Shown: positions 2,851 through 27,968 of the stretch, in pieces
Layout of the letters: every line of letters begins with the position of its first letter
Position numbering within the stretch: position 1 is the stretch's first letter
Made by a program: the position numbers and the translations under genes
Origin: Candidatus Thermoplasmatota archaeon
GTDB taxonomy: Archaea; Thermoplasmatota; E2; DHVEG-1
Length of the DNA: 33,900 bases
Assembly: GCA_038884455.1 (NCBI GenBank)
Contig: JAWABU010000018.1
Location: 1-33,900, forward strand
Direction: 5' to 3'
Notes under the pieces: model-generated
Seen by the model: only the letters and a program-made list of their open reading frames with translations
Database searches by the model: none
What the model was told of the DNA's origin: nothing

Positions 2851-2904
2851 CGCTACCAATTGCATTGTAGTACTTTTAAAATTCAACGGTGGAGGCAAAA
2901 ATAT

Positions 2905-4086
2905 ATGCATGAAGTTGTAATTGTATCTGCAGTTCGTACTGCTCAAGGTAAATTCGATGGGGCATTACGGAGTTTTTCTGCACCAGAACTCGGTGGTATT
3001 GTCCTCAAAGAAGCAGTCAAACGTGCACAGATTCAACCAGAGGATGTCGATGAAGTTATCATGGGTAATGTTGTTTCAGCAGGCCTTCATCAAAATGTTG
3101 CCCGGCAGGCAGCTATCGCTGCTGGAATACCATATACGGTTGGAGCATTCCATGTTGACAAAGTATGTGGTTCATCACTGAAATCAGTAATCTTAGCTGC
3201 ACAAGCGGTTAAATGCGGTGATGCAGAATGTATTGCTGCAGGGGGCATGGAAAGTATGACCAATTGTCCCTACCTCCTTGATAAAGCACGTTTTGGGTAT
3301 CGACTTTTTGATGGGAAGCTTATTGATGCAATGGTCAATGATGGTTTATGGGATGTATATAATAACTTTCACATGGGCATGACTGGAGAAATTATCGCTG
3401 AAAAATATCACATTTCACGAAAAGAATGCGATCAGTTTGCAGTATCAAGTCATCAAAAAGCAGCTCATGCAACAAGAACAGGTAAATTTAAAGATGAAAT
3501 ACTCCCTATTGAAATAAAACAAAAAAACGGAGAATCTTTTGTCTTTTCAGCGGATGAAGGCATTCGATCAAATTCAACCATTGAAGGTCTTGAAAAATTA
3601 AAACCGGTTTTTAAAGAAAACGGTGTCATCACTGCAGGTAATGCATCGCAGATTTCTGACGGAGCCTCTGCAGTTGTCGTTATGAATAAAAAGAAAGCAG
3701 AAAAACTTGGCATCCAACCACTCGCATCTATCCTAGACTATAATACTATGGGTGTAAAACCAGAGTATGTCATGGAAGCACCAATCCCTGGAGTGCAAAA
3801 TCTTCTAAAAAAGATGGATCTTACGATCGATGATATCGATCTTATAGAACATAATGAGGCTTTTTCTTCTGCATCGATTGCCGTTATGCGCGAGTTGCAC
3901 ATACCTGAAAAAAAATTTAATGTTCATGGTGGTGCTATAGCACTCGGTCATCCGATTGGAAGCAGTGGATCTCGTATTTTAGTGACCTTGTTGCATGCCC
4001 TACATCACTATAAAAAACAGAGAGGACTTGCAACTATTTGTCTTGGTGGTGGGCATGCTGTTTCAATGGTTATCGAACGGAGGTAA
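2905..4086 (+). CDS. thlA: Acetyl-CoA C-acetyltransferase (thiolase)
   Basis: This biosynthetic/degradative thiolase condenses two acetyl-CoA to acetoacetyl-CoA, or cleaves the latter. The protein is 393 residues, the usual family length. The nucleophilic cysteine is C88 in [10 protein letters not shown]. The histidine of [17 protein letters not shown] and the second cysteine in [13 protein letters not shown] complete the active site, and [11 protein letters not shown] is the expected NEAF loop. The open frame extends upstream to 2860, but the ATG at 2905 is preferred: it begins with the family's [12 protein letters not shown] and has GGTGGAGG 9 bases before it. It is first in a three-gene operon. 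The next gene's ribosome binding site, GGAGGT, overlaps this stop codon, so translation is probably coupled. Confidence 0.93.
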
Positions 4087-4091
4087 TCAAG

Positions 4092-4952
4092 ATGGTAATC
4101 AAAAAAATTGGTGTTGTTGGCGCAGGTACTATGGGCCATGGGATAGCACTTGTCGCAGCACAAAGTAACTATCATGTTCTCATGTATGATCTCAAAGAAG
4201 AATATGTTATAAACGGTTTTAAAAAAATTGAAAATTTCCTCAACAAAAGCATTGAAAAAGGAAAACTAACGCAAGCAGGAAAACAAGAAATTCTACAGAG
4301 AATAACACGAACAACTACTCTTGATGATTTTAAAGATGTTGACGTTGTTATAGAAGCTATCGCTGAAAATATACAAGCAAAAAAAGAGGTTTTTAAAAAA
4401 CTTGACATGATTTGTAAAAAAGAAACAATTTTTGCGTCAACAACGTCAACGATACCAATTACTGATCTTGCGTCAGCAACACAACGCTCTGAGCGGTTTA
4501 TCGGAATGCATTTTATGAATCCAGTTCCGCTCATGAAACCAATAGAGGTTATACGAGGTCTTCGCACATCTCAACAAACCGCAACTACGATTCATGACAT
4601 TGCAGTACAAATGGGAAAAACGCCAGTTGAAGTCAACGACAGCCCTGGTTTTGTATCAACACGAGTGCTCTTTGCTATGATTAATGAGGCGATATTTTGT
4701 CTGTATGATGGTACAGGATCCGCTGAAGCTATTGATACCATTATGAAACTTAGTTTTAACCATCCGATGGGGCCATTAGAACTTGCTGATCTGATTGGTC
4801 TTGATGTATCATTAAACATTCTCAATATCTTATACGAAGGTTTTAATGATCCTAAATATCGTCCATGTCCTCTGTTGAAAAAAATGGTTCAAGCAGGATT
4901 TCTTGGTCGAAAAACTGGAAAAGGATTTTATGAGTATCCAACCATGAGGTGA
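4092..4952 (+). CDS. hbd: 3-hydroxybutyryl-CoA dehydrogenase
   Basis: This enzyme oxidises (S)-3-hydroxybutyryl-CoA to acetoacetyl-CoA with NAD(P). The 286-residue protein begins with a Rossmann fold ([16 protein letters not shown], GxGxxG at residues 9-14). The C-terminal helical domain contains [17 protein letters not shown] and the closing [12 protein letters not shown]. The catalytic histidine is H140 in GMHFMNPVP, with E152 in KPIEVI and the asparagine of VNDSPGF following. The common ASNTS stretch reads ASTTS here, a conservative oddity. The ATG at 4092 is chosen over the longer frame from 4038 because it starts the Rossmann strand and has GGAGGTAA just upstream, overlapping the thiolase stop. 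The downstream crotonase starts 3 bases after the stop, with GAGGTGA as its binding site. Confidence 0.93.
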
Positions 4953-4955
4953 ACG

Positions 4956-5735
4956 ATGTCTTTTAAGAATATTATCATCCAAAAACAGAATACGATTGCT
5001 CTTCTAACAATCAACCGACCTTCAGTCTACAACGCTTTAGATAGAGAAACACTCATCGAATGTGAACGAGCGTGCGATGATTTTGAACATGACCAAACAA
5101 TAAAAGTTGTTATTATTACCGGTCAGGGAAAATCATTCATTGCTGGCGCCGATATTAAACACATGAAAAACATGACTTCTTTAGAAGCACAAGAATTTGC
5201 TGAACTCGGTCAACAACTTCTTTTTAAAATTGAACATTCACGAGTACCCTACATTGCTGCAGTCAATGGTTATGCACTTGGTGGAGGATGTGAACTTCTG
5301 ATGGCTTGTGATATTGTGATTGCGGCAAAAACCGCCAAAATCGGACAACCAGAAATCAACCTTGGAATCCATCCTGGTTTTGGAGGAACTCAGAGATTAC
5401 CGCGACGTTGTGGAATATCTAAAGCAAAAGAACTCCTTTTAACTGGTGATGTGATCTCAGCAGACGAGGCATTCGAAATCGGTTTAGTGAATAAAGTTGT
5501 CGATGATGACCAATTAATGAACGAAGTTAACATCCTCGCTGAAAAAATATCATTAAAATCCCCTCTACAACTACGTTTTATTAAAGAGTTGGTCAATAAA
5601 GGAGTTAACCTTGATCTGTCACATGCGTGTGCATTAGAACGTGCTTCTTTTTCAGTATGCTTTTCGACGAATGATCAAAAAGAAGGGATGACTGCATTTC
5701 TTGAAAAACGAAAGCCCCAATTTCAAGGAAAATAA
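4956..5735 (+). CDS. crt: Enoyl-CoA hydratase (crotonase family)
   Basis: A 259-residue enoyl-CoA hydratase, likely hydrating crotonyl-CoA to 3-hydroxybutyryl-CoA in step with its operon partners. The oxyanion-hole segments are IAGADIKHM (about 62-70) and NGYALGGGCEL (104-114). Both catalytic glutamates are present, E113 (GGGCEL) and E133 (GQPEINLGIHPGFGGTQ), with the 20-residue separation seen in rat crotonase. The C-terminal helices end with FLEKRKPQF, as is usual. It is third in the thiolase-HBD-crotonase operon. It is followed by a short CTTTTTT tract near 5754-5760 before the convergent adenosyltransferase. Confidence 0.92.
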   Translation: MSFKNIIIQKQNTIALLTINRPSVYNALDRETLIECERACDDFEHDQTIKVVIITGQGKSFIAGADIKHMKNMTSLEAQEFAELGQQLLFKIEHSRVPYIAAVNGYALGGGCELLMACDIVIAAKTAKIGQPEINLGIHPGFGGTQRLPRRCGISKAKELLLTGDVISADEAFEIGLVNKVVDDDQLMNEVNILAEKISLKSPLQLRFIKELVNKGVNLDLSHACALERASFSVCFSTNDQKEGMTAFLEKRKPQFQGK

Positions 5736-6702: not shown

Positions 6703-7869
6703 ATGTTTGATAATTTTATTTCAACCCCCATGCAACTCGAACTTACAGAGCAACAAAAGATGATTAAAAACATGGTTAGAGACTTTGCTGAGAAAGAAAT
6801 AGCACCTCACGCGAAAGAATTAGACAAAAAAGAAGAATACCCCTCAGCAATATTAAAAAAAATGGCAGAACTTGGTCTTTTAGGAGTTTTTATCCCAACA
6901 GAATATAGCGGTGCTGGATTAAATGCACTAAGTTATGCTATAATAATTGAAGAAATATCACGAAAATGCGCAGCAACCGGTGTTATTACCTCAGTTCATA
7001 ATTCACTTGCAGCATCACCAATTATTCACTATGGAACTGAAGAACAAAAAAAGAAATATTTACCGCTCCTCGCAAAAGGAGAAAAAATTGGAGCGTTTGC
7101 AGGAACTGAACCAAATGCCGGATCAGATCTTGGTGCAATGCAGACCACCGCAGTCCGCAAAGGTGATCATTACATCATCAATGGCCAAAAAACATTCATC
7201 ACAAGTGGACCAAAAGCAGGTATTATCATCGTCTTTGCAGTTACTGATAAAACAGCAGGTACAAAAGGTATCAGCGCATTTATTGTTGAAAATACCATGA
7301 AAGGATTTAAGGTCGGTAACACCTTTCAAAAACTTGGAATAAACGCATCATTAACATCTGAACTTATTTTTGAGAATATGCATGTGCCCAAAGAAAATCT
7401 CCTCGGCAAAGAAGGCGAAGGATTCAAAATCGCATTAAGTACGCTTGACGGAGGTCGTATCGGTATTGCATCTCAGGCGGTTGGTATCGCTCAAGCTGCA
7501 CTTGATGAAAGCATCGAGTATGCAAAACAGCGACAACAATTCGGTAAACCCCTTGCGCAGTTCCAAGCAATTCAATGGATGATTGCAGACATGGCAACCC
7601 GAATTGAAGCTGCCCGATACCTTGTGTACAGTGCTGCATACAAAAAAGATAAAGGTGAACGGTATTCAAAAGAAGCTGCCATGGCAAAACTGTTTGCATC
7701 AGAAACAGCAGTGGATGCAGTGATCAAAGCAGTACAAATCCACGGTGGGTATGGATACACAAAAGAGTATACTGTTGAACGATTGTTTAGAGATGCAAAA
7801 ATAACTGAAATCTATGAAGGAACATCAGAAGTTCAACGAATGGTTATTGCCTCAAATATCCTTAAATAA
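6703..7869 (+). CDS. Short-chain acyl-CoA dehydrogenase (butyryl-CoA dehydrogenase-like)
   Basis: An FAD enzyme that introduces the 2,3 double bond into a short acyl-CoA and passes electrons to ETF. The 388 residues cover the N-terminal helical domain (LTEQQKMIKNMVRDFAEKEI), the FAD-binding beta domain (FAGTEPNAGSDLGAM, ITSGPKAG) and the C-terminal helical domain. The catalytic base is E372 in IYEGTSEVQRMV, the position used by short-chain dehydrogenases. QIHGGYGYTKEY is the FAD/partner-contact motif. The start could be the ATG at 6703 or the one at 6730 (MQLELTEQQ, closer to the usual family N-terminus). Neither has a good ribosome binding site. The ETF genes follow after 172 bases, consistent with a butyryl-CoA/crotonyl-CoA step. 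Exact chain length is inferred from the neighbourhood. Confidence 0.92.
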   Translation: MFDNFISTPMQLELTEQQKMIKNMVRDFAEKEIAPHAKELDKKEEYPSAILKKMAELGLLGVFIPTEYSGAGLNALSYAIIIEEISRKCAATGVITSVHNSLAASPIIHYGTEEQKKKYLPLLAKGEKIGAFAGTEPNAGSDLGAMQTTAVRKGDHYIINGQKTFITSGPKAGIIIVFAVTDKTAGTKGISAFIVENTMKGFKVGNTFQKLGINASLTSELIFENMHVPKENLLGKEGEGFKIALSTLDGGRIGIASQAVGIAQAALDESIEYAKQRQQFGKPLAQFQAIQWMIADMATRIEAARYLVYSAAYKKDKGERYSKEAAMAKLFASETAVDAVIKAVQIHGGYGYTKEYTVERLFRDAKITEIYEGTSEVQRMVIASNILK

Positions 7870-8041: not shown

Positions 8042-8806
8042 ATGATCACGATCGTTTGTGCAAAGCAAGTTGTTGATGTTTCAGAGATAAAAATTGATCC
8101 TCATACTAAAAAACCGATATTGCAAGGATTATCAAAAAAAATTAGCGATATCGATAAAAATGCTCTTGAGGAAGCAATTAAAATTAAAGAAAAAAATGGT
8201 GGAAAAATAATCGTACTTTGTGTTGGTTCACCAGATGCAAAAGAACGGCTAAAAGAACTGCTTGCTATGGGTGCTGATGAAGCTGTTTTAATTCCATTTG
8301 AAGAAACCTTTGATTATCACATGGTTGCGCAGCTTCTTGCAGGAGCAGTAAAAAAACTTGGTTCTTTTGATTTGATCCTCTGTGGGGAAGCATCAATAGA
8401 TTTGTTTTCAGGACAAATAGGACCACGGTTAGCTGGAATTCTCAATATTCCACAGATTACCTATGCCCAAAAAATCACCACTGAAAAAAACAAAGTAACT
8501 GCTGAACGCAATATGGGAGAAAACATTGTTATCACCGAATCTTCATATCCTGTGGTTATAACAGTAACAAAAGAAATTAACACACCGCGGTTACCGAGTC
8601 TTATGCAGATTTTGGGTTCTGCACAGAAACCGATTCATGAATGGAATCCTCAGTCACTACTCCAAGAAAAACCGGTATTAACCACTAAAGTTGTTGAACT
8701 TTCAGGAATCTCTATGCATCGAAAGAATATCATCTTTAAAGATGACCTTGATCAATCCGTCCACAAGCTTGTTGACTGTCTGATCCATGAAGGAGTGCTG
8801 AGGTGA
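8042..8806 (+). CDS. etfB: Electron transfer flavoprotein beta subunit
   Basis: The small ETF subunit (254 residues) binds AMP or a second FAD and pairs with EtfA to carry electrons from acyl-CoA dehydrogenases. It opens with ITIVCAKQVVDVSEIKID. The conserved region near 110-130 reads LILCGEASIDLFSGQIGPRLA. The signature later in the protein is TVTKEINTPRLPSLMQI. The recognition loop and C-terminal arm that contact the dehydrogenase lie at about 190-240. AGGAGGAT 7 bases before the ATG is a strong ribosome binding site. The stop overlaps the GAGGTGA binding site of etfA, so the two are probably co-translated. Whether this ETF is bifurcating cannot be decided by eye. Confidence 0.92.
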   Translation: MITIVCAKQVVDVSEIKIDPHTKKPILQGLSKKISDIDKNALEEAIKIKEKNGGKIIVLCVGSPDAKERLKELLAMGADEAVLIPFEETFDYHMVAQLLAGAVKKLGSFDLILCGEASIDLFSGQIGPRLAGILNIPQITYAQKITTEKNKVTAERNMGENIVITESSYPVVITVTKEINTPRLPSLMQILGSAQKPIHEWNPQSLLQEKPVLTTKVVELSGISMHRKNIIFKDDLDQSVHKLVDCLIHEGVLR

Positions 8807-9783: not shown

Positions 9784-10305
9784 ATGACGAGAAAAAACGA
9801 TGTAAAGAAACTCTTGGATATCCCAAACGAAAAAATCCCTGATTTTATTTTTTTACATCTGAGAAACCTATGGGCAGTAGATGGACTATACTATCTCGGT
9901 ATCGAAGAAAAATGGGGAACAGCCGAGGCGACAACAATTGACGAGCATGTCTGGAAAGTTATGGGAAAAATAGAAGCGCGAAAACTCAAAGAATTTTTCC
10001 ACCTTCAAGGATCTGATGTGAAATCAATGATGCATGCATTACAGTATTCTAGTTGGGCATTAGATCTAGAAGACAAAGAAATTATCATCGAGGAAAATAG
10101 AGCAGTTATTCGAAATACGTACTGTCGTGTACAGACGACTCGTTTAAAAAAAGGATTATCTGAATTTGCATGTAAACCGGTACGACTCGGTTTTCTGAAA
10201 GCATTTGCTGCCGAATTTAATCCAAATATCAAAGTTACCTGCACGATATGTCCACCAGACATTCACCCTCAGAATTTGTGGTGTGAATGGGAGTTTCGCC
10301 TTTAA
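9784..10305 (+). CDS. DUF6125-like protein (ATC-hydrolase-like fold?)
   Basis: A 173-residue soluble protein. It opens with a helical part containing FIFLHLRNLWAVDGLYYLGIEEKWG. The C-terminal half carries several cysteines: TYCRVQTTR, FACKPVRL, TCTICPPDIHP and LWCEWEF. That layout resembles the archaeal DUF6125 family, distantly like L-2-amino-thiazoline-4-carboxylate hydrolase-type proteins. The assignment is from memory of the pattern and is tentative. Its role is unknown, though the cysteines could bind a metal or cofactor. It begins 13 bases after etfA and is followed after 50 bases by the AbfD/HpaB-family gene. It is therefore probably co-transcribed with both and may assist or regulate that pathway. 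No ribosome binding site is visible before its ATG. Confidence 0.7.
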   Translation: MTRKNDVKKLLDIPNEKIPDFIFLHLRNLWAVDGLYYLGIEEKWGTAEATTIDEHVWKVMGKIEARKLKEFFHLQGSDVKSMMHALQYSSWALDLEDKEIIIEENRAVIRNTYCRVQTTRLKKGLSEFACKPVRLGFLKAFAAEFNPNIKVTCTICPPDIHPQNLWCEWEFRL

Positions 10306-10355: not shown

Positions 10356-11813
10356 ATGAAAACGGGAGAAGAGTATAAAGAAACGTTACGGTCGATGCGA
10401 CCGAATATATATAAGTTTGGTGAGCTGATTACTGATGTTACCACACATCCTGCGACGAAACGAACAATTGAGGGGCATGCCCAAATTTTTGATGCCCAAC
10501 ATAAACCTGAATATCAGGATATTCTGACAAAAAAATCTTCATTGATCAACGAACGGATTTCTCGATATTTATCGATCGTTGAAACTGCGGATGATATGTA
10601 TGCAAATGTTCGAATGAAACGGCTGATGTTTAACTTAACAGGTACATGTACCGGAGGTCGTTGTGTTGGTTTTACTGCAATCAACGCCATGTGGGCAGCA
10701 ACATATGATCTTGATTTAGAATTTCACACAGAGTATCATAAACGATTAAAAAAATGGCTTATCGATGCACAGAAACGAGATATCACAGTGTCTGGTGCAT
10801 TAACTGATCCAAAAGGAGATCGATCAAAATCTCCATCACAGCAACATGATCCAGATATGAATCTGCATATCGTCGAAGAAAAAAAAGATGGAATCATTGT
10901 TCGCGGAGCAAAAGTGATGATCTGTGGTGTTGCAGCTTCAAATGAAATTTTTGTCATGCCTGGAGCAGGATATAAAGAAGAGGACAAAGCCTATGCAATT
11001 TCTTTTGTAATTCCAAGAGATTGCAAGAATTTGACAATTATCGAAACTCGACGGCCAAGTGATACCCGTGAACAAGAATGCGGGTTTGATATCCCTGTAG
11101 ATATCGGAGGAATTACGCAGGCGTATCTTTTATTTGATGATGTATTTGTGCCAAAAGAACGTATTTTTATGTGCCAAGAATATCCATATTCATCAAAAGC
11201 AGTGGTACATTTCATCGCAATGTACCGAGCGGCGATCGGTGGCTGCGTTGCTGGTCAGGGTGATGTTATGATCGGTGCTGCTGCATTAATCGCTCGTGCT
11301 AATGGATTATCAGAAAAAGTTTTTCGAGATAAGATAACCCAGATGAGTATCAACAACGAAACAACATTTGGTATGGGAATTGCTGCATCTGCATTAGGAA
11401 CACGACATCCCTCAGGTGTCTGGTTTCCTCATACTCTTCTTTCAAATGTCAATAAAGTCCATGTCGCTACCTTACCCTATGAAACAAAACGCCTCGTTCA
11501 GGAAATCGCCGGTGGTATCGGAGAAACCGGATGTCTTCCATCATGTCAAGATATTCATGATCCCAAGTATGGAACCTTATTACAAAAATATTTAAAGGCA
11601 TCTTGTTCAGGAGAGACCCGTGCGAAAATCAGCCGTCTTATTGAATGGCTAACCATTGGTGCTGGTGTTCCTGGATGTATGCATGGAGGAGGATCTCCGG
11701 CTAGCGCAAAATTGATTATCAACGCACAAACCGATATCCAACACTATATTGCATTGGCGAAACGACTTGCACACATTACCGAAGACATTCAAGTAGAACA
11801 GAAAAAGAAATAA
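10356..11813 (+). CDS. 4-hydroxybutyryl-CoA dehydratase / HpaB-family flavoprotein, atypical active site
   Basis: A 485-residue member of the flavoprotein family that contains 4-hydroxyphenylacetate 3-hydroxylase (HpaB) and 4-hydroxybutyryl-CoA dehydratase (AbfD). The FAD-contact region at about 145-160 reads GALTDPKGDRSKSP. The C-terminal domain has GGCVAGQGDVMIGAAALIA (295-313) and CMHGGGSPASAKLII (441-455). AbfD of Clostridium aminobutyricum binds a 4Fe-4S cluster through C99, C103, H292 and C299. Here C98, C103 (CTGGRC) and C297 are present, but the residue 7 before C297 is Y290, not His. Residues corresponding to Y296 and K300 are Ile and Val. The family is sure; 4-hydroxybutyryl-CoA dehydration is not. 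It follows etfBA and the DUF6125-like gene, with GGAG as binding site 11 bases before the ATG. Confidence 0.85.
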   Translation: MKTGEEYKETLRSMRPNIYKFGELITDVTTHPATKRTIEGHAQIFDAQHKPEYQDILTKKSSLINERISRYLSIVETADDMYANVRMKRLMFNLTGTCTGGRCVGFTAINAMWAATYDLDLEFHTEYHKRLKKWLIDAQKRDITVSGALTDPKGDRSKSPSQQHDPDMNLHIVEEKKDGIIVRGAKVMICGVAASNEIFVMPGAGYKEEDKAYAISFVIPRDCKNLTIIETRRPSDTREQECGFDIPVDIGGITQAYLLFDDVFVPKERIFMCQEYPYSSKAVVHFIAMYRAAIGGCVAGQGDVMIGAAALIARANGLSEKVFRDKITQMSINNETTFGMGIAASALGTRHPSGVWFPHTLLSNVNKVHVATLPYETKRLVQEIAGGIGETGCLPSCQDIHDPKYGTLLQKYLKASCSGETRAKISRLIEWLTIGAGVPGCMHGGGSPASAKLIINAQTDIQHYIALAKRLAHITEDIQVEQKKK

Positions 11814-15510: not shown

Positions 15511-18135
15511 TCATTTGTTTTTTCTCCTTTTGTGTAAAATATAAAATAATGGTGGATAATGTAGGTACAAACTCGGGACAATAAATATGATTATACATAT
15601 TATACTTAGGATAGTATAAATCAAAATCGCAATCGGCGTCGTTAGTAAATTTATAACTTTTTTAAGGACAATAGTATGTTCACTAAAATTGGGTATAAAA
15701 ATCAATACATGGATTTTTTTATCAGAATCTTGCGTAATATAATATTTTGGATTGTTTTCATGAATATCTGTATTTAAAAGATCAGTTATATTATTCGCAA
15801 TAGTTAGTATTTTTTGATTGTCATATTCGACACTTATTTCTTCATGGGAGCCTACAATAGTTTCTTGATTTAGAATTATAACCAGAATACTACTTTGTGT
15901 TTGTTCGCTACTAATATTCAATGAAATTTGTTTTTGTTGTTCATTATAGATGATAGATCCAATGGACAAATCAGTATACGTCAATTTTTCATAATAAATT
16001 GATTCTTCTGTTTGATTAAAAATTATTTCTCCGCCTATTTTTCCTTCAAGTATTGCATTATTGATATATTCTCTGATCAAACTATTCGGTTGGACAGAAG
16101 AATCAATTCTTTTTAGGAAAAAATCAAGTTGAACAGCGGTATTTTTATAGATATCAATGGTTTGTGTCTGTGGATAATATCCGATTTTAGATACTTGAAT
16201 ATGATAACTTCCTTCAAAAAGTGGTTTACTATTATACAGACCATCTTTTGAAATAGTACACTCTCTCTCAATATTGTTGCCAATGTTATAATTAATACAA
16301 ATTGTTACATTTTGCAATATGTTATGATCTTCATCGTAGATTATCCCAAAAACCCATCCATGATTTTTTGCACTATCGTCTTGATTTAAAATCGATATTA
16401 TTTTTGTAATTGATGGATAGTTTTCATACGTTACTACTAATGGAAAAACAGTATTTCTAGTAACATACGGAGCTGAAATAATAATTGTTCCAAATATATC
16501 TGTTTTGTAGGTTTTTCGTAAAAAAGTAACTGAAGCTTGATCAACTGGTTTTCCGTCAACAAGGACAGTTACAGTAAAATTTTCCCCTTCTACTATTTCA
16601 GACGGACATTCAACTAGTAATGAAGATATCGACTGATTAATAACCTGCAGAAAAGGTAAGGACCAATCACTTTCTGCATTATATATATCTCTTGCTCTGA
16701 TTTGGACTGTATGAATCCCTGAGGTTTTCCAAGAATAACTTTGTTGTACTGAAAAATTTGATTGATACGGGCCGAACCATTCGGTAATAACCGTATCGAA
16801 CTTCCATTGATACCACAGTAGATCTCCATCAGGATCATCAGTCTTTGAAGTAAAAATATAATTTTTATGTATTTCTCCAAAGGTTGTTCCAATCGGTTTT
16901 ATCGGCTGTATAGGGGCATTATTTTCACCAAATCCGATAACAATTTTATTGTTTGTTGCAACCCAAATTTTTCCATTCGAAACAATAGGTTGTCCATTTG
17001 CTGTGTACTCTCCAGTACTCGCTTGCCAAATAACAGAAGAAGTGCCATTGTCATTTCCAAGTGCATCAAAACAATAAAACTTTCGTGGTTTTACGGAAAC
17101 ATACACTTTAGAATCTGCAACAATGGGAGAAGCAGATGCCCATGTTGTCGTACCAGAAAATGTATAATCCCAACATACCTTTAATTCCCCTTGAGTAGCA
17201 TTGAAGGTCAAACAATAGATTTTATTTTGACTCGAATAAGATGTTCCAAAGTAAATATTCCCATAAGCAGCAGTGATATCTGTGAGAGCACTCACTGGGT
17301 GAATCTGATACTCAGCAATCAAAGTTGTTGTGCCGTCGCCATTGCCTTCTGCATCGAGACAAATTAACGATGAAACACAGCCAACATAAACTCTATTATC
17401 AACAACAGTACATGCTGTTGCTCGTGGTGATCCTTCTATTAGATATCTCCATTTTTTTTCACCGGTATCTCGATCAAGGCAATAAATAAAGGAAGTGCTC
17501 TGAAAAGCTCCTAACAAAGAGTTACTTGCTGAAAAATATATCTTGTCGTTTTGGCATGCAGCAGCAGTAAAAATAGTTTCATTTGCTGTGAACGACCAAA
17601 TCAACGTACCATTCTCATCGATACAATACATCTTTTTATCGGTCGAACCAACAAAAATTTTTCCATGATCTACCGTTGGTGATGCTTTGATAGTATTACC
17701 AGTTTCTATTGTCCATTTGACAGAACCAGTTTCAGTATCGAAACATAGAAGTTTTGAACCAGATCCAACATAAAGTTGATTATTATTCACAGCAGGAGTT
17801 CCATAGATTAAACCATAACTCTCTTGTAAATTTTTTTTCCAAAACACTGAGCCATTGTATGCATTGATACAGTAAAGTGATCCATCGGAGAAACCAACGA
17901 ATAGCTTTCCATTAAAAAAAACAGGATATCCGGCAGCTTCACCTTGATTTTCACTATCTACTTGTTTTATTAGAAATGTCTTATTTGTAATTGGTGCAGA
18001 TGTTGGAGAGAAACTTGTGTTTATTTCATTATATCCATATTGAGGCCAATTAGCGACAATTGCTGTCGAACAGAATGACAAGAAACAAAAAATCACCAAT
18101 GCATATGTACATAATTTTGATACCTCTTTATTCAT
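15511..18135 (-). CDS. Membrane-anchored PQQ-type beta-propeller protein
   Basis: An 874-residue exported protein. A signal peptide (about 8-28, YALVIFCFLSFCSTAIVA) leads into a PQQ-like beta-propeller (about 30-405). Its blades repeat (K/R)(L/I)(Y/F)VG...K.(Y/L)C.D, several with DxxGNGDGT loops (DAEGNGDGTTTL). A PKD-like domain follows (about 410-500, DPDGDLLWYQWKF), then an Ig-like domain (about 505-580), a carboxypeptidase-regulatory-like domain (about 590-680, GSYHIQVSKIGYYPQ) and a unique region. A C-terminal membrane helix (about 830-855) ends in the basic tail HKRRKNK. The propeller is probably structural or binding, because no PQQ-enzyme catalytic motif is evident. It starts the minus-strand operon with the small membrane protein and the regulator. 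It lacks the shared C-terminal domain. Confidence 0.88.
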   Translation of the reverse strand: MNKEVSKLCTYALVIFCFLSFCSTAIVANWPQYGYNEINTSFSPTSAPITNKTFLIKQVDSENQGEAAGYPVFFNGKLFVGFSDGSLYCINAYNGSVFWKKNLQESYGLIYGTPAVNNNQLYVGSGSKLLCFDTETGSVKWTIETGNTIKASPTVDHGKIFVGSTDKKMYCIDENGTLIWSFTANETIFTAAACQNDKIYFSASNSLLGAFQSTSFIYCLDRDTGEKKWRYLIEGSPRATACTVVDNRVYVGCVSSLICLDAEGNGDGTTTLIAEYQIHPVSALTDITAAYGNIYFGTSYSSQNKIYCLTFNATQGELKVCWDYTFSGTTTWASASPIVADSKVYVSVKPRKFYCFDALGNDNGTSSVIWQASTGEYTANGQPIVSNGKIWVATNNKIVIGFGENNAPIQPIKPIGTTFGEIHKNYIFTSKTDDPDGDLLWYQWKFDTVITEWFGPYQSNFSVQQSYSWKTSGIHTVQIRARDIYNAESDWSLPFLQVINQSISSLLVECPSEIVEGENFTVTVLVDGKPVDQASVTFLRKTYKTDIFGTIIISAPYVTRNTVFPLVVTYENYPSITKIISILNQDDSAKNHGWVFGIIYDEDHNILQNVTICINYNIGNNIERECTISKDGLYNSKPLFEGSYHIQVSKIGYYPQTQTIDIYKNTAVQLDFFLKRIDSSVQPNSLIREYINNAILEGKIGGEIIFNQTEESIYYEKLTYTDLSIGSIIYNEQQKQISLNISSEQTQSSILVIILNQETIVGSHEEISVEYDNQKILTIANNITDLLNTDIHENNPKYYITQDSDKKIHVLIFIPNFSEHTIVLKKVINLLTTPIAILIYTILSIICIIIFIVPSLYLHYPPLFYILHKRRKNK

Positions 18136-18241
18136 ATACCCATCCAGTCCTAATTACATAAATGATATCATAAATCCTATATTCAAATTTTTTGTTTAGA
18201 AAAAATATGCGATAATAAAAATACCTGATTCTAAGTAAAAT

Positions 18242-18287
18242 ACTCTTACAAAAACTCAAAACAATTTTCAATAAAATATTAATATTG
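18242..18287 (+). repeat. Promoter-region repeat, copy 1
   Basis: About 46 bases that recur at 19267-19311. The first 21 are identical (CTCTTACAAAAACTCAAAAC is the core). The rest is similar, with CAATAAA and an AT-rich TATA-like stretch. It lies about 100-140 bases before the ATG of the small secreted protein at 18385. Confidence 0.7.
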
Positions 18288-18384
18288 TTTGAATCCAACT
18301 TATGTATGAAAAATAGGGTGATCTTTTTTATCATCTTATTTTTCCCCCAATTTCCCCATCTTGTATATGTCAAAAAGGAGGTAT

Positions 18385-18723
18385 ATGATGAAAGAAGTCA
18401 GATTTGGAAAAAAGCTGATATTTATATTATTGCCGGCAATAGTTTTTTTGACCTGTTTTGTTTCTTACGAAGTCAAAGCAGGTATCGGTGAAGATGGGCG
18501 TTCTGTATTTGATGGTGATTGGTATGATGTTTGGCCATACCCTGCAGGTACAATTCAAATCGGAGCGTTCTATACAACTGGAGGATGGACACTTAAAGAC
18601 GGAGAGTGGACATACCTACCAGCAGGTGTTTATCGTATTTACAAAACCATAGTCAGCTTTCCAGATAGCATTCTTGATGATTATCCTCCGATTATTATCG
18701 TCTTTCAAGAGATACCTGTTTAA
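18385..18723 (+). CDS. Small secreted protein, Trp/Tyr-rich
   Basis: A 112-residue protein with a clear signal peptide (KLIFILLPAIVFLTCFVSYEVKA, cleavage near residue 30). The mature part is about 80 residues, rich in aromatic residues (DGDWYDVWPYPAGTIQ, TTGGWTLKDGEWTYLPAG), and looks like a compact all-beta domain. I do not recognise the family. The open frame extends to 18361, but AAAAAGGAGGT (18372-18382) directly precedes the ATG pair at 18385/18388, so the protein starts there (MMKEVRFGKK). It sits downstream of a repeat shared with the promoter of the PQQ propeller gene at 19385, hinting at common control. The next small secreted protein follows after 100 bases. Confidence 0.75.
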   Translation: MMKEVRFGKKLIFILLPAIVFLTCFVSYEVKAGIGEDGRSVFDGDWYDVWPYPAGTIQIGAFYTTGGWTLKDGEWTYLPAGVYRIYKTIVSFPDSILDDYPPIIIVFQEIPV

Positions 18724-18823
18724 GTAGAAAGTCTGAAGAATAATAAAGATTAATATTGCATGTCCTAGTAAGGATATTTCCCAAAAGAGTTTATCCTTTA
18801 AAAAAACTAAAAAGGTGTTGAAA

Positions 18824-19150
18824 ATGAAAAAGATAGGAAAAATGTTTAGTATTTGGGCTAGTGTTTGTCTTATAGTTATAGCAATACTACCCATGGTATC
18901 ATCAGATAATCATCACGCAGGAGATAATGCTAATAATTTAGATGAACTTAAAAAAGCAGCAAGAGAAATAAAACTAGTAAAAGATCCATTATGTGGTTTT
19001 CTTAGAGTATATCTTAACATGAAGAAAATGTCAGATCCAACCTTCACATTTGAAGACTATTTTGAAGAATTTATAAAACCTCGATTGGAAGAAATGAAAC
19101 TTGATATCAACAATGATCGGATAGAGATTATTCCTATATATTTAGATTAG
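18824..19150 (+). CDS. Small secreted protein of unknown function
   Basis: A 108-residue protein with a signal peptide (MFSIWASVCLIVIAILPMVSS, cleavage near residue 30). A histidine/asparagine-rich linker (DNHHAGDNANN) and an alpha-helical, charged mature domain (LDELKKAAREIKLVKD ... FEEFIKPRLEEMKLD) follow. No known family is recognised. The frame opens at GTG 18815, but the ATG at 18824 has AAAGGTG 7 bases before it and begins the signal peptide directly. Together with the gene at 18385 it forms a small secreted pair ahead of the large propeller operon. A T-rich tract follows its stop. Confidence 0.7.
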   Translation: MKKIGKMFSIWASVCLIVIAILPMVSSDNHHAGDNANNLDELKKAAREIKLVKDPLCGFLRVYLNMKKMSDPTFTFEDYFEEFIKPRLEEMKLDINNDRIEIIPIYLD

Positions 19151-19213
19151 AAGTAAAATAGAGTAACTACACTCAGCGATATACGTCTAAGAGTTCTAAT
19201 TTTATTTATTAAT

Positions 19214-19223
19214 TATTTTTTTC
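19214..19223 (+). terminator. T-rich tract after the small secreted pair
   Basis: ATTTTTTTCA follows an AT-rich stretch about 65 bases after the stop at 19150 and before the next promoter-region repeat. It is consistent with an archaeal T-tract terminator. Confidence 0.3.
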
Positions 19224-19266
19224 ATTAATGTATATAATTTTTAATTTCTGGTCATACACATAAAAA

Positions 19267-19311
19267 ACTCTTACAAAAACTCAAAACTTTTTCAATAAAG
19301 TTTATGTATTG
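19267..19311 (+). repeat. Promoter-region repeat, copy 2
   Basis: Second copy of the block at 18242-18287, with the same 21-base core and a similar AT-rich tail ending TATTG. It lies about 75-115 bases before the ATG at 19385, the same orientation and similar distance as copy 1 to its gene. It probably includes the promoter. Confidence 0.7.
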
Positions 19312-19384
19312 CGGCAGAACTTTTATTAATCAAGTTATTAAAAAAATAAACAAAAAATAAAAAAAATTAGGGGGAAAAAGCAAA

Positions 19385-21829
19385 ATGAACAAAAAATATG
19401 TAACTATCTTAGTCATAGTGCTAACGCTGGTGATATCTAATTTTATAGTACAATCAGTAACAGATTCAGTAAATGATGGCTCTGAAGCCACTAAAAATAC
19501 AGATTGGTGGTTCATGTTTCAACATGACTTACAACACACGGGTTCTTCAACATCTCATGCCCCAGAAACAAATAATTTAAAATGGACGTATCTAACTAAT
19601 GATATCATTAGTTCTTCTTCTCCGATCATTGTTAATAATAAAGTATATATTGGTTCAAGAGATAAAAAAGTATATTGTTTAGATGCAGAAGGTTGTTGGA
19701 ATGGTACCACGAATGTGATCTGGAGTTATACCACCGGCGGTACGATAAATTCAACACCTGCATTTGCTGATGGAAGAATTTATATAGGATCTAATGATAA
19801 AAAAGTTTATTGTCTAGATGCAAATGGCAATGGTGACGGTACAACAAATGTCATCTGGACCTTTGAAGATTCGTTTGGATTTGAATCATCTCCAGCGGTA
19901 AACGATGGCAAAGTCTACATTGCTTCAAAAAGTAAATATGTTTATTGTCTTGATTCTTTAGGTAACAACGATGGTACGACGAATCGTATATGGTCCTACG
20001 AAACAGGAGATATAATTACTTCATCTCCCGCAATCTTCAACGGAAAACTCTACATCGGATCAAAAGATAAAAAGATATATTGTCTTGATGCAAATGGCAA
20101 TGGCGACGGCACAACAAACCTCATATGGTCCTACACCACAGGAGGCGCAATCAGTTCGTCTCCGGCAATTGTTAACGGAAAACTCTACATCGGATCAAAC
20201 GATAAAAAGATATATTGTCTTGATGCAAATGGCAATGGCGACGGCACAACAAACCTCATATGGTCCTACACCACAGGAGGTGCGATCAGTTCCTCGCCCG
20301 CAGTAGCAAGCGAAAAAGTATACATTGGTTCACAGGATAGAAAAGTATATTGTCTTGATGCGAATGGCAATGGCGACGGCACAACAAACCTCATATGGTC
20401 CTACGCCACTGGAGGTGTGATCAGTTCCTCGCCCGCAGTAGCAAGCGAAAAAGTATACATTGGGACACAACTGAAACAAATATTGTGCTTTGATGCAAAT
20501 GGCAATGGCGACGGCACAACAAACCTCATATGGTCCTACACCACAGGAGGCGCAATCAGTTCGTCTCCGGCAATTGTTAACGGAAAACTCTACATCGGAT
20601 CAAACGATAAAAAACTATATTGTTTCGAAACTCCAAGACCATCTCAGCCGATCATTTCTGGAAATCATGATTGGAAACCAAATCAGATCGTTTTTATTGA
20701 AGTTCGATCGACTGATTCAGATAATCGTCCGATTCGATATGGAATTAATTGGACTGGACAAGATATAACATGGTCATCATATTATCCTTCAAACACAACC
20801 CAAATATTTACCCACGTGTATACAACTTGGGGGGTCTATACTGTTGCAGTGATAGCAGAAAACAACGTTGGTGCAAAAAGCCCATGGTCATATCATACGA
20901 TCTATGTGAACAATTCAAAGCCAACAGATCCTGTTGTTACTGGTCCCACTGAAGGATGGTTATATATATCATACAATTTCACTGCAGAATCTACTGATGA
21001 CGATGGCGAGAGCCTATATTATTATTGGGATTGGAATAATGATGGTATATGGGAGGATTATGGACCGTCAGTATCCCATGCATGGACACAACCAGGAATG
21101 CGTACTTTTAAAGTTTGGGCTTATGATGGACAAGAGTTTAGTAATAAAACTACATCATCTATACTCATCAGAAATCATATACCTGAAAAACCTACACTTA
21201 CCGGACCGACAGAAGGAATCACAGGTGTATCATATACCTTTTTTGTAAATACAACTGATGAAGATGGAAATTACGTTAAATATGGATTTGATTGGAATGG
21301 TGATGATCAAATTGATCAGTGGACTGTGACATCTGTAGATCCAACGGTACCGTATCCAGTACCTCATATTTTTACTGAACCAGGAACGTATACGATTAAG
21401 GCAAAAGCAAAGGATGAGTGGAATACCAGTGATTGGTCAAACACCCTGATTATAACTATTAAAACACCAGCGAATCTTTCAGTTATAAAGATCGGTGGTG
21501 GTGGATTGTTTGGTCAAGGTATATTTAACAACATTGGCATTAAACGAATTCAAGCAACTATTGTCAATACAGGACAAACAAGTGCATATAATGTTACATG
21601 GAATATCACACTTTCTGGTGGAAATACGGGAGCATATATCTTTGCTGGAGAATTTGCCCAAGGATTTATTCCTCAAATTGAAGGAGAACAATCAGTGATT
21701 ATTATTGATAAACCAGTACGCGGTATCGGTACAGTCGACATCATTATTACTATTAAAGCAGAGTTGATGCCTGATATTGTTGTAACAAAAAAAGCACGTC
21801 TCTTCTTTGGGCTAATCTTCGTTCAGTAA
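19385..21829 (+). CDS. Secreted PQQ-type beta-propeller protein with calcium-loop blades
   Basis: An 814-residue exported protein with a signal peptide at about 1-25. The N-terminal motif WWFMFQHDLQHTGSS leads into a beta-propeller to about residue 415. Its blades repeat every 45 residues with the core VYCLDANGNGDGTTN...IWSY, and the DxNxNxDG stretch resembles a calcium-binding loop. Three PKD/Ig-like domains follow (about 420-510, 512-600, 602-695). The shared C-terminal domain spans about 697-814 (VNTGQTSAYNVTWNITLSGG). Likely role: large surface or extracellular binding protein. No enzyme motif is seen. GGGGGAAAAAG before the ATG acts as binding site. It is first of four same-strand genes with gaps of 27 bases, under 20 bases and an overlap. 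Confidence 0.88.
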   Translation: MNKKYVTILVIVLTLVISNFIVQSVTDSVNDGSEATKNTDWWFMFQHDLQHTGSSTSHAPETNNLKWTYLTNDIISSSSPIIVNNKVYIGSRDKKVYCLDAEGCWNGTTNVIWSYTTGGTINSTPAFADGRIYIGSNDKKVYCLDANGNGDGTTNVIWTFEDSFGFESSPAVNDGKVYIASKSKYVYCLDSLGNNDGTTNRIWSYETGDIITSSPAIFNGKLYIGSKDKKIYCLDANGNGDGTTNLIWSYTTGGAISSSPAIVNGKLYIGSNDKKIYCLDANGNGDGTTNLIWSYTTGGAISSSPAVASEKVYIGSQDRKVYCLDANGNGDGTTNLIWSYATGGVISSSPAVASEKVYIGTQLKQILCFDANGNGDGTTNLIWSYTTGGAISSSPAIVNGKLYIGSNDKKLYCFETPRPSQPIISGNHDWKPNQIVFIEVRSTDSDNRPIRYGINWTGQDITWSSYYPSNTTQIFTHVYTTWGVYTVAVIAENNVGAKSPWSYHTIYVNNSKPTDPVVTGPTEGWLYISYNFTAESTDDDGESLYYYWDWNNDGIWEDYGPSVSHAWTQPGMRTFKVWAYDGQEFSNKTTSSILIRNHIPEKPTLTGPTEGITGVSYTFFVNTTDEDGNYVKYGFDWNGDDQIDQWTVTSVDPTVPYPVPHIFTEPGTYTIKAKAKDEWNTSDWSNTLIITIKTPANLSVIKIGGGGLFGQGIFNNIGIKRIQATIVNTGQTSAYNVTWNITLSGGNTGAYIFAGEFAQGFIPQIEGEQSVIIIDKPVRGIGTVDIIITIKAELMPDIVVTKKARLFFGLIFVQ
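19676..20635 (+). repeat. 135-base tandem repeat encoding propeller blades
   Basis: The Cys codon of the YCLDA core recurs at exactly 135-base steps: 19676, 19811, 19946, 20081, 20216, 20351, 20486 and 20621, eight positions in all. The copies from about 20041 to 20620 are nearly identical at DNA level (for example GGCAATGGCGACGGCACAAC in four of them), while the first three have diverged. This points to recent internal duplication or gene conversion in the middle of the gene. Confidence 0.92.
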
Positions 21830-21856
21830 TGATGATGGAACAGAAGGTGAACAGAG

Positions 21857-24247
21857 ATGGGAAAAAAAAAAGTATTAATGATAGTAGCAATTATGCTTTG
21901 TACCAGTATACTCTTGTGTCCCAGCGGGTACAGTGCAAACAGAAATGCGATTACTGAAACAAACCACCATCAAGACTTTGATGTCCTGCGAAGTGGAATA
22001 CAGCCAACTCCGTACTATTTCCCATTTTCTAATAAAAATGTACAACCAGCGTATACCCAAACCTCTTCTTTTAATTTTCCACAATACGAGTTTATCCAAA
22101 ACCCAACACCGGTGCTAAAATCATTTTATGATTATATGCCTGGTAGTTATTCATCAAATTCTATTTGTCTTCAAAAGATGAACGGTGGGGGTCAATATTT
22201 GACGTTTCATGCGCAGCCAACGAAAACGATCGAACGGCGACAATACTATGCGTATGTAAATAGCTCATATGGAATCATCAATGGGACCATAACAACATAT
22301 ACAAAACGACAAGGATATGGCTCACTTGCTATTCATCCATCGACAGGTAACCCGATTGTCAGTTGGCATGAATCACCTGAGTATACAACAGCGATCACCT
22401 ATGATAATTTTAATGCAGGAAATATCCCAGGGTCATGGATGAATCCTGTAACTATCCCGTTGTCAGATTCCATGCATTATATCTGGCCATCGATGTATAT
22501 CGGTCCATCCCCCTTAGGAACACAGTATGTTCGTGTGTATCAAATAACAAATAATGAAGTGAACATCCCCGGTGAGCTTCCCTGCGAAGATGTTCGAATT
22601 ATGTATACCGATGTACTGAATACTCATGATGCTGACCTGACCAGCCTTTTAAATCAAACATCATGGACAACTACAACTGTATTTACCGAGTGGCGTGCCA
22701 AAGCATGTCGACCATTCCAAGCGTTTGCCATTGATTACACACATCCTGGAAAAGTAGCATTCATTGGCTGGGCTTCATGGTTAAAAGGAGACATGGGAGA
22801 TATGCCAGTGAATGAAGGAGCATTTGTGTGGGAATCATTTGACTATGGTGAAACCTGGAACATCGCCAATTTGTATGATGATGGCCCAGGACAACCATTA
22901 TATCAAGTTCAAAATCCAGGATTTCCAGAAGCACCAGCATTCCTTGATGTAACTATTGCTGGGTTTCATAATACTGCTCTGTATGATGCAGAGGGAAATC
23001 TCCATATGCCCTATCTGCAACAATACAGCTGGAGTAACGGCGTCTCAACATTTTATCTTCCCTATTTCCTTCCACAAGCTGAAATGGTATGGAATGGAAC
23101 TAGTTTCAGTTTTCGGGAGGTACCACAACTTCCTGGTTACGATAGTCATTCTGGTCATACTGTACCATGGATCGATAGTAATAATCTGTTCCCAGTTATT
23201 GGATGGAGTACCTATCCAGCAAGCGATGCTGGAATATTTCATGAAAACATCCAAAAACAAGCAATAAATCGTGAAAAAAATTGGATGGTACAAATGTGGG
23301 TTGATGGCACCTATCATCAACTCGGAACCGATGGAAATCCACAATATAGCAAGTATAAGAAACATCCGCTAATTTACATTAGTGTTTCTCCAGACAATGG
23401 AAATTCTTGGTTTGACCCAATACCACTTACAGACGTTAACAGTCAACTGTTTGATTTCTCAGATCAAATAACTGTTTATCCTTATTTATGTCCTGATATC
23501 GTCGATCTTGGTAACGATTGGGGTCAAATCTTTCTGTACTATTTTGATGACAATGATTTTGGATCATACATCCAGAGTAGCGGTCCAAACACTGGGGGAT
23601 ACCTAATGTATTGTTCAATAAAAATTAAGTTTCCAAAGCCCGGTGATATGGACATCAATGCAAATGGACCGTATGCTGGATATATCGGTGATGAAATAAA
23701 CATGTTTGGATCTGCAAGCGGAGGAAAACCACCATATGTATGGCATTGGGATTTTGGAGACGGACAGACTGCAGCAGTACAGAATCCTAAACATTCCTAT
23801 AACGAACGAGGTACATATACCGTTAGATTAACAGTTACCGACAGCTCTAACCCACCAAATATCAAAAATGATACAACAGTTGCTACAATTCAAAATCGAT
23901 TCACGATCCAAATCAAAAAAGGACTGGGGCTTAAGGTGTTTGTTAATAATACTGGTGATAAAGATCTTACAAATATCTCATGGTCAATCAAAGTGAACGG
24001 CAGATTTGTATTTCCCAAAGAAAAAAAAGGAATATTATCTAAGTTACTCGTAGGTGAAGGAAAAACAGTACAAATGCTCATTCTTGGTTTTGGACCTATC
24101 GGAATTACTGTTCGGATAGATAAAGAGAACATGTCAGAACCAGCACTTCTAGTATTATTCTATGTCATCGATACAAAGCTGAATGAATCAAAAACAACAG
24201 TAACTAATTTATACGATTATAAAAAGAATATTGAAGAAAAGAAATAG
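21857..24247 (+). CDS. Secreted sialidase-like (Asp-box) propeller protein with PKD domain
   Basis: A 796-residue exported protein: signal peptide about 5-26 (MIVAIMLCTSILLCPSGYSA), then a large region to about 590 resembling an Asp-box (BNR) beta-propeller. Two Asp-box motifs are visible, SFDYGETW and SPDNGNSWF. The region is rich in W, Y and P, as in exo-sialidase-like folds, but sialidase active-site arginines cannot be assigned by eye, so enzymatic activity is open. A PKD domain follows (about 596-675, WHWDFGDGQTAAVQNPKHSY). The shared C-terminal domain begins near 681 (VNNTGDKDLTNISWSI) and is followed here by an extra charged tail. GGTGA before the ATG serves as binding site. It starts 27 bases after the previous stop, in the same operon. 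Confidence 0.85.
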   Translation: MGKKKVLMIVAIMLCTSILLCPSGYSANRNAITETNHHQDFDVLRSGIQPTPYYFPFSNKNVQPAYTQTSSFNFPQYEFIQNPTPVLKSFYDYMPGSYSSNSICLQKMNGGGQYLTFHAQPTKTIERRQYYAYVNSSYGIINGTITTYTKRQGYGSLAIHPSTGNPIVSWHESPEYTTAITYDNFNAGNIPGSWMNPVTIPLSDSMHYIWPSMYIGPSPLGTQYVRVYQITNNEVNIPGELPCEDVRIMYTDVLNTHDADLTSLLNQTSWTTTTVFTEWRAKACRPFQAFAIDYTHPGKVAFIGWASWLKGDMGDMPVNEGAFVWESFDYGETWNIANLYDDGPGQPLYQVQNPGFPEAPAFLDVTIAGFHNTALYDAEGNLHMPYLQQYSWSNGVSTFYLPYFLPQAEMVWNGTSFSFREVPQLPGYDSHSGHTVPWIDSNNLFPVIGWSTYPASDAGIFHENIQKQAINREKNWMVQMWVDGTYHQLGTDGNPQYSKYKKHPLIYISVSPDNGNSWFDPIPLTDVNSQLFDFSDQITVYPYLCPDIVDLGNDWGQIFLYYFDDNDFGSYIQSSGPNTGGYLMYCSIKIKFPKPGDMDINANGPYAGYIGDEINMFGSASGGKPPYVWHWDFGDGQTAAVQNPKHSYNERGTYTVRLTVTDSSNPPNIKNDTTVATIQNRFTIQIKKGLGLKVFVNNTGDKDLTNISWSIKVNGRFVFPKEKKGILSKLLVGEGKTVQMLILGFGPIGITVRIDKENMSEPALLVLFYVIDTKLNESKTTVTNLYDYKKNIEEKK

Positions 24248-24252
24248 AATGC

Positions 24253-24260
24253 GAGGTGAT
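24253..24260 (+). promoter_or_regulatory. Strong ribosome binding site without an ATG downstream
   Basis: GAGGTGAT is a full match to the archaeal 16S 3' end. The only in-frame codons at proper spacing are ATT, ATT and ATA (24259-24267). The ATA at 24265 sits where an ATG would be expected and is followed by AAG AAA, a usual signal-peptide start. Confidence 0.55.
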
Positions 24261-26175
24261 TATTATAAAGAAATGTGTTTTGATAATAAGTAGCTTGTTG
24301 TTCTTTGCAGCGTTAAACTCTGTAACCTTGTCAACGAAAATTACAGCGCTGCCCGAGACAGTATCTTTAGATCAAGAATCATCAAATATAGATTGGTGGC
24401 CCATGTTTCACCATGATGCACGCCATACCGGAAGTTCACAATCCAACGCTCCAAACACGAATCATTCGATATGGAAACTATCTCTTGAAAAAGAAATTAC
24501 TTCAGCGATCACGATTTTTGAAAATAAAATCTACTTGGGATCAGTAGACAAAAAAGTATATTGCATTGATGCTCTCGGTGACGGCAGTGGGGCAACAAAG
24601 ATTATTTGGACTTTTTTAACCAACGGAATTATACGATCGACGCCAGCAATTGCTAACGGAAAACTGTATGTCGGCTCCGAGGATAAATATCTATACTGTC
24701 TTGATGCAACAGGAAACGACAACGGAACCACAACACTTTTCTGGAAGTATCAATGTGGGGACAGTATCGTTTCCTCACCAGTGGTCACAGATAGATTTGT
24801 TTTTATTGGATCATCAGATAAAAAAATATACTGTTTTAATGCAACAACCGGCGATATTGTATGGAGTTACCAAACAGGTGGAAATATTAAGTCATCACCA
24901 GCTGTTGATAATGATCGTTTAATCGTTTTAGCAGACAATAAACGATTGTTTTGTTTTGATGCTGATCCTTCAGACGGAATTGATGAAGGAGTTGATGATC
25001 CCGATAATGCATCATATGATCTTATTTGGAGAAAAACACTGAGTGTAACCATTTTTTCTGCAGAACCATCACCGATTATTTATAATGAAAAAATATATCT
25101 TGGAACTGGATTTCGATTGTTTTCATTTGATCTACAAACAGGAAATATCCTCTGGCAGGTCACTGATTTACCAATCACCATAACACGAACCCCGACAATC
25201 TACCAGAATAGATTATATGTTACAACATTTTCTGATAAAAATCAGACACTTTGTTTTGATTCAGATCCTTTTGATGATGGTATCGATGAGGGAATACCTG
25301 ATCCGGAAGAATGCGAATACGATCTTATCTGGATTTATGATACTCAAACTGGAAATACCGTCATGTCATCTCCCATTAGTGCAGATGGTAAAATATATTT
25401 TGGTTCCAGAGATTCTTTTATGTATTGTTTGAACGCATCAGACAAGTCTTTAATTTGGAAATATAAAACAAAAGATCCAATTGAAACATCATCTCCAGCA
25501 ATTGCACAAAAAGTACTGGTTTTTAGTTCAAATACTACTCTTTATTGTTTTGCAGATAACAGCCCCCCATACAAGCCCCAAACACCAGGAGGACCAACTA
25601 TAGGTTTTACGAATTATGAGTATCAATACACCGCGAGTACTGAAGATCCTGATCATGATCAACTTTGGTATAATTTTTCATGGGGTGACGGTACCTCCAG
25701 TGGTTGGATTGGCCCTGTTGCTCAAAACACACCGATCTCAGCAACTCATTCTTGGAAAAATCCTGGAACATTCTATGTACGGGCAAAAGCAAAAGATCAA
25801 TATGAAACAAGTCAGAGCTCTGAACGGTTAAAAGTAATCATTGTAGATCCTCCGAATTTAAACATTGATTCAGTTACTGGCGGTAAAGGTGTTTCAATAA
25901 ACATCAATAACACAGGTAATGGCCCTGCTACTAATGTAACAGTCTCCATCCATATAACCGGGGGTGTTTTTGTTTACCCAAGAAATACCTCAATATTTTT
26001 GAATATGATTGGATCGCATGAAGAAATAGATGTCATAGTATCAATCTTTGGGTTTGGCTTAGGATTATGTACACCATTACCGATCATAACTATAACGGTA
26101 ACTTGTGATCAAGGAATCACGACTAATAAAACAGTAAATGCGCAGATATTATTCAATACAGTTCGTATAAAATGA
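24256..26175 (+). CDS. Secreted PQQ-type beta-propeller protein
   Basis: An exported protein of about 636-639 residues. The signal peptide (KKCVLIISSLLFFAALNS) leads into the motif WWPMFHHDARHTGSSQS, shared with the propeller at 19385. A PQQ-like propeller runs to about 435, with blade loops such as DATGNDNGTTTLFWKY. Two longer acidic inserts in the propeller (near 240 and 345, DSDPFDDGIDEGIPDPEE) replace the short calcium-like loop. A PKD-like domain (about 440-530) and the shared C-terminal domain (about 534-639, INNTGNGPATNVTVSI, ending LFNTVRIK) follow. The start is uncertain: GTG at 24256 lies inside the ribosome binding site, and the best-placed codon is ATA at 24265. Its stop overlaps the next gene's ATG (ATGA), so translation is coupled. 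Confidence 0.85.
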   Translation: MIIIKKCVLIISSLLFFAALNSVTLSTKITALPETVSLDQESSNIDWWPMFHHDARHTGSSQSNAPNTNHSIWKLSLEKEITSAITIFENKIYLGSVDKKVYCIDALGDGSGATKIIWTFLTNGIIRSTPAIANGKLYVGSEDKYLYCLDATGNDNGTTTLFWKYQCGDSIVSSPVVTDRFVFIGSSDKKIYCFNATTGDIVWSYQTGGNIKSSPAVDNDRLIVLADNKRLFCFDADPSDGIDEGVDDPDNASYDLIWRKTLSVTIFSAEPSPIIYNEKIYLGTGFRLFSFDLQTGNILWQVTDLPITITRTPTIYQNRLYVTTFSDKNQTLCFDSDPFDDGIDEGIPDPEECEYDLIWIYDTQTGNTVMSSPISADGKIYFGSRDSFMYCLNASDKSLIWKYKTKDPIETSSPAIAQKVLVFSSNTTLYCFADNSPPYKPQTPGGPTIGFTNYEYQYTASTEDPDHDQLWYNFSWGDGTSSGWIGPVAQNTPISATHSWKNPGTFYVRAKAKDQYETSQSSERLKVIIVDPPNLNIDSVTGGKGVSININNTGNGPATNVTVSIHITGGVFVYPRNTSIFLNMIGSHEEIDVIVSIFGFGLGLCTPLPIITITVTCDQGITTNKTVNAQILFNTVRIK

Positions 26176-27866: not shown

Positions 27867-27904
27867 CATAGAGAACAATAATGAAACTAAGAGGCGCTAA
27901 CGGG

Positions 27905-27926: not shown

Positions 27927-27968
27927 CACCTACGATCCTTGTCAAGATCTAACGAGCGTTGCCGCATC

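Follow-up and report, generated by a model that had tools for sequence, protein, structure and literature searches.

A Tyr290/Val298 clade of AbfD relatives with a replaced active site and a possible electronic link to ETF

The stretch of DNA analysed here (the window; 33,900 nucleotides of a Candidatus Thermoplasmatota contig) encodes a 485-amino-acid relative of the 4-hydroxybutyryl-CoA dehydratase AbfD in which the radical-forming residues and the His ligand of AbfD were all replaced and the three cluster cysteines were kept. The protein belongs to a widespread, apparently previously undescribed clade marked by Tyr290 and Val298. Our leading reading, drawn from sequence and held tentatively, is that it may be an acyl-CoA enzyme with FAD and [4Fe-4S] that has given up generating a radical by itself and instead trades electrons with the electron-transfer flavoprotein (ETF).

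The gene is complete, with an ATG start and a GGAG motif about 10 nt 5' of it, and its product carries the two Pfam domains HpaB_N and HpaB. Searched with phmmer against solved chains, the protein matched C. aminobutyricum AbfD (1U8V) over its full length (E 2e-100; 38% identity), followed by the N. maritimus enzyme (6VJR; 7e-95) and, much more weakly, HpaB (2e-31). When the AlphaFold2 model (mean pLDDT 91.9) was overlaid on the AbfD crystal structure, as had been proposed with the original prediction, the folds agreed closely (TM 0.94, rmsd 1.7 to 1U8V).

Residue equivalences were taken from the phmmer alignment and from a MAFFT alignment with 1U8V and 6VJR. Both placed C98, C103 and C297 at C99, C103 and C299 of AbfD, just as the hand count of the original prediction had done, and both bore out its proposed replacements of ligand H292 by Y290, of Y296 by I294 and of K300 by V298, along with the CX4C spacing of the first cysteine pair (CTGGRC) as against CX3C (CFQRC) in AbfD. 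That count had been open to correction by a His falling at the ligand position once the proteins were properly aligned; Tyr290 was found there instead. Several further changes had been missed: E257 was replaced by Q255, T190 by C190 and Q101 by Gly; the Glu455 segment was shortened, leaving Gly440 at the E455 column; and C393 and C441 were present as new invariant cysteines. R90 and an AbfD-type TDPKGDR segment were retained. Among the marks of EC 4.2.1.120, the protein thus has the fold, the homology and the three cysteines, and lacks the His ligand and Y296, E455, T190 and E257. On substrate binding, AbfD reportedly forms a flavin semiquinone via these last four residues, and single changes at any of them or at the ligands are said to abolish or nearly abolish its activity. 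Features and coordinates are collected in Table 1.

Table 1. Positions in the window of the AbfD relative, its altered residues and the genes upstream
Feature	Positions	Strand	Basis
Thiolase, 3-hydroxybutyryl-CoA dehydrogenase and enoyl-CoA hydratase genes, upstream	2860..5735	+	C4 acyl-CoA context, outside the conserved linkage
Short-chain (butyryl-type) acyl-CoA dehydrogenase	6703..7869	+	PF00441; nearest solved chain 5ol2_C
EtfB, degenerate b-FAD motif DLFSGQIGP	8042..8806	+	PF01012
EtfA, only one found in own genome	8814..9770	+	PF01012/PF00766
DUF6125 protein	9784..10305	+	PF19620, E 3.5e-32; five invariant Cys in Thermoplasmatota operons
AbfD-family protein, Tyr290/Val298 clade, 485 aa	10356..11813	+	Pfam; 1U8V, E 2e-100; model TM 0.94
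C98 and C103, CX4C pair CTGGRC, presumed cluster ligands	10647..10664	+	Alignment to C99/C103; 69/69 in clade
C190 at T190 place	10923..10925	+	Clade 62 Cys, 7 Ala; Thr in 48/48 canonical
Q255 at E257 place	11118..11120	+	68/69 in clade
Y290-R-A-A-I294-G-G-C297-V298 (His292 to Tyr, Y296 to Ile, K300 to Val, Cys ligand kept)	11223..11249	+	Alignments
C393, new, in a two-residue stretch that AbfD lacks	11532..11534	+	69/69 in clade; column gapped in canonical and type 2
G440-C441 at E455-S456 columns; preceding segment 4 residues shorter	11673..11678	+	Alignments

The replacements characterize a whole clade. Among 68 distinct full-length relatives, a His at the 290 place was found only in one (locus L099), which is a canonical enzyme (41% identity). 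Tyr290, Val298, C98, C103, C297 and C393 were present in all 69 aligned clade members and C441 in all 68 scored. H292, Y296, K300, E257, T190 and E455 were present in 48 of 48 canonical enzymes in the combined alignment, a set chosen partly on H292, Y296, E257 and E455, so that the counts at those columns describe the group and are no test of it. With the trait columns removed, the clade formed a single branch with 100/100 support and a stem of 0.83, within the FeS-retaining part of the family. It kept 51 of the 77 columns invariant among canonical enzymes and had lost 21. Of 11 known AbfD active-site positions, a list drawn up after the replacements had been seen, 7 were lost.

Contig scans returned close homologues labelled Thermoplasmatota, Bathyarchaeota, Zixibacteria, Dehalococcoidia, Aquificota, Deferribacteres, Acidobacteria, Dethiobacter and others, the labels being those of metagenome-assembled genomes (MAGs), of which some contigs are possibly misbinned. 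One AbfD-family member was found in the archaeon's own genome. Canonical and Tyr-type copies occurred together in several genomes rich in family members (Dethiobacter, 10 among the matches listed; Dehalococcoidia, 6-7), and because the two share genomes the Tyr type looks like an extra function rather than a substitute for the canonical enzyme. We found no description of the clade in the open-licence PMC literature, which is not proof of novelty.

Other irregularities in the family were observed along the way. One Dethiobacter MAG (G066; loci L100, L120, L160, L161, L170, L172, L174 and L175) had 10 AbfD-family matches among those listed, an unusual expansion. Broken or split gene copies, with internal stops or in two frames, were present in related genomes, on G010:C78, G001:C1 and G003:C17, perhaps through real decay or assembly error; the copy in G010 accompanied a canonical AbfD, L099, in which one stop was counted too. 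Variants at L104, L123, L161, L162, L165 and L127 had CIYRC with Ser190, Thr257, His292, Cys296 and Lys300, and those at L106 and L169 had CX4C with Gln at the His292 place; judging from such residues, the AbfD family holds several undescribed active-site types.

The AbfD relative is the last gene of a run comprising acyl-CoA dehydrogenase, EtfB, EtfA, a DUF6125 protein and the AbfD relative itself, with gaps of 172, 7, 13 and 50 nt. Two acyl-CoA dehydrogenases were found in the own genome. In related genera an AMP-forming acyl-CoA ligase followed the acyl-CoA dehydrogenase; methylmalonyl-CoA mutase, also a neighbour there, was not found in the own genome. Several bacteria had the order dehydrogenase, EtfB, EtfA, sometimes a Usp and a membrane protein, AbfD relative and PaaK-like CoA ligase. 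Among loci with 2.5 kb or more of sequence on each side, ETF lay within 5 kb of 10 of 17 Tyr-type genes and of 0 of 21 other family genes (Fisher p 4e-5, overstated as the rows are related). In Zixibacteria and some other clade lineages, no ETF adjoined the gene. The adjacent EtfA genes did not form one group: those of Thermoplasmatota, mixed bacteria and Dehalococcoidia stood apart and forced at least 3 label changes, which may be gains or losses, one of the non-adjacent rows (L216) lying at a contig end and perhaps adjacent in reality. More than one origin of the linkage is likely. In one bacterial locus (L044), EtfA and the AbfD relative were joined in-frame as a single 887-amino-acid open frame; a second such fusion was not found in 98 genomes drawn as relatives of that locus.

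The DUF6125 protein, which was not named in the open-licence PMC papers searched, may assist the operon by binding a metal or a ligand: C114, C130, C153, C156 and C167 were invariant in 28 sequences, and its AlphaFold2 model (pLDDT 91.4) bore a weak likeness to the TRAPP/MopR-type aromatic-sensor fold (best E 3e-3). Among solved structures, the dehydrogenase, EtfA and EtfB of the run come nearest to the Bcd-EtfAB, CarCDE and Ldh-EtfAB complexes, none of which, to our knowledge, has an AbfD-like subunit. The b-FAD motif of bifurcating EtfB is DGDTAQVGP (PMC9232219). Compared with those complexes, the EtfB of the window has a degenerate motif, and Dehalococcoidia EtfB was a closer match. A bifurcating ETF in the archaeal operon is thus doubtful, even though the nearest solved proteins are bifurcating.

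Elsewhere in the window, positions 15511-33435 hold, on both strands, a series of large PKD and PQQ/beta-propeller proteins that are predicted to be secreted. A peptidase family C25 (gingipain-like) protein with PKD domains (28627-31377, minus strand) fits protein-degrading sediment archaea, and an IS200-like (Y1_Tnp) transposase gene lies at 27969-28550 (minus strand).

The retention of all three cysteine ligands makes an altered FeS cluster likely, and a reaction on acyl-CoA that differs from that of AbfD is plausible from the residues replaced. As we reconstruct it, the protein would bind FAD together with a [4Fe-4S] cluster whose ligands are C98, C103 and C297, the fourth iron being held by Tyr290 or by a new cysteine (C393 or C441), or left as an open site. 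Because the residues thought to give AbfD its own flavin radical are gone, the flavin would take electrons from ETF or give them up to it, the cluster perhaps acting as a relay (or Lewis acid), and the enzyme would act as an ETF-linked acyl-CoA oxidoreductase or as an ETF-primed radical enzyme. Its substrate would be the acyl-CoA handled by the neighbouring dehydrogenase, made in relatives by the adjoining AMP-forming CoA ligase; in the source archaeon, a short-chain acyl-CoA is our best guess. Of the readings that cover the ETF linkage too, entry or exit of electrons through ETF is the simplest. In its favour we counted a residue pattern shared by all 69 clade members and reversed in the 48 canonical enzymes, the fully supported branch, the coexisting copies, the skewed linkage counts, the separate EtfA groups, the L044 fusion, and the failure to find in the own genome either a SucD-type aldehyde dehydrogenase or a 4-hydroxybutyrate-type CoA-transferase. 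Against it stand the lineages with no adjoining ETF, the fact that the fusion is a single case, and the possibility that ETF serves the dehydrogenase only. Still more tentatively, the clade might constitute a new enzyme class, an AbfD scaffold turned into an ETF-driven FAD/[4Fe-4S] acyl-CoA oxidoreductase or radical enzyme, in which a Tyr- or Cys-ligated or site-open cluster would replace the His-ligated one and radical generation would be external instead of substrate-induced.

The strongest competitor, which we nonetheless consider unlikely, is an acyl-CoA lyase or isomerase without redox chemistry, one that, for instance, converts 3-enoyl-CoA to 2-enoyl-CoA or eliminates some other leaving group. 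It would supply the acyl-CoA dehydrogenase, and ETF would work for the dehydrogenase alone. AbfD itself also has vinylacetyl-CoA isomerase activity, for which the structure record 6VJR is named, and a shared pathway would produce the linkage to the dehydrogenase; however, H292, E455 and E257, the candidate bases, have all been lost, and the protein found fused to the AbfD relative is EtfA rather than the dehydrogenase. Loss of the catalytic residues, retention of the FeS cysteines and the EtfA fusion would also suit a non-catalytic electron carrier or structural partner of the dehydrogenase/ETF complex, but strong conservation across phyla, which extends to active-site positions with new invariant residues, favours catalysis and makes such a role improbable.

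It is more doubtful again that the protein has remained a 4-hydroxybutyryl-CoA dehydratase in spite of a rearranged active site, crotonyl-CoA being made or used beside thiolase, 3-hydroxybutyryl-CoA dehydrogenase, crotonase and butyryl-CoA dehydrogenase. The fold, the three cysteines and the C4 acyl-CoA genes upstream in the window agree with such a role, but the thiolase-crotonase set did not adjoin the AbfD relative in related genomes, H292, Y296, K300, E257, T190 and E455 were replaced clade-wide, and the Tyr type was kept even in genomes with a canonical copy. Nor did the searches reveal a SucD-type route to 4-hydroxybutyrate: PF00171 (the aldehyde dehydrogenases, SucD included) had no match in the own genome (97.9% complete) or in SG8-52-3, while a control matched in 14 of 14 genomes. 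Two Fe-ADH matches were found in the search. The sole CoA-transferase match in the own genome was CitF, not a 4-hydroxybutyrate-type enzyme, and on these gene searches a 4-hydroxybutyrate route there is unsupported. The CitF-type citrate lyase alpha gene (G000:C16, locus L196) lies beside a likely citrate synthase or citryl-CoA lyase gene, here in an archaeon.

The original prediction had allowed for either an altered FeS cluster or a divergent type 2 form, and only the former is supported. Second family members were found in Thermoproteota genomes that also carry a canonical copy with 44% identity; we take these second members to be the Sulfolobales (crenarchaeal) type 2 enzymes. Like the Tyr type, these putative type 2 proteins are a second divergent form within the same family, but their residue pattern is the opposite: all three cluster cysteines are absent (IFNISQA, C299Y), while H292, E257 and T190 are kept. 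In the tree, a placement that the original prediction had called for, they branched apart from the Tyr-type clade with strong support. HpaB-type flavin monooxygenases share the fold family (TM ~0.85) and the Pfam domains with our protein at an identity of ~21%; unlike it, the solved HpaB sequence has no cluster cysteines, and the NCBIfam HpaB cut-offs were missed by far (158.8 against 480.2 bits; 97.9 against 885.2). A crenarchaeal type 2 dehydratase or HpaB-type monooxygenase is hence scarcely credible.

The published inference of a 4-hydroxybutyrate cycle in SG8-52-3 used a candidate dehydratase. The only AbfD-family match in that genome, on the contig at locus L019, is Tyr-type, and the dehydratase evidence for the cycle should therefore be reconsidered; genes of the clade should not serve as a marker of CO2 fixation. 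If the protein does exchange electrons with ETF, the clade would be a natural experiment in which a flavin/FeS radical enzyme gave up its internal source of radicals for an outside one, and it would allow direct tests of what the His ligand and the Tyr relay do.
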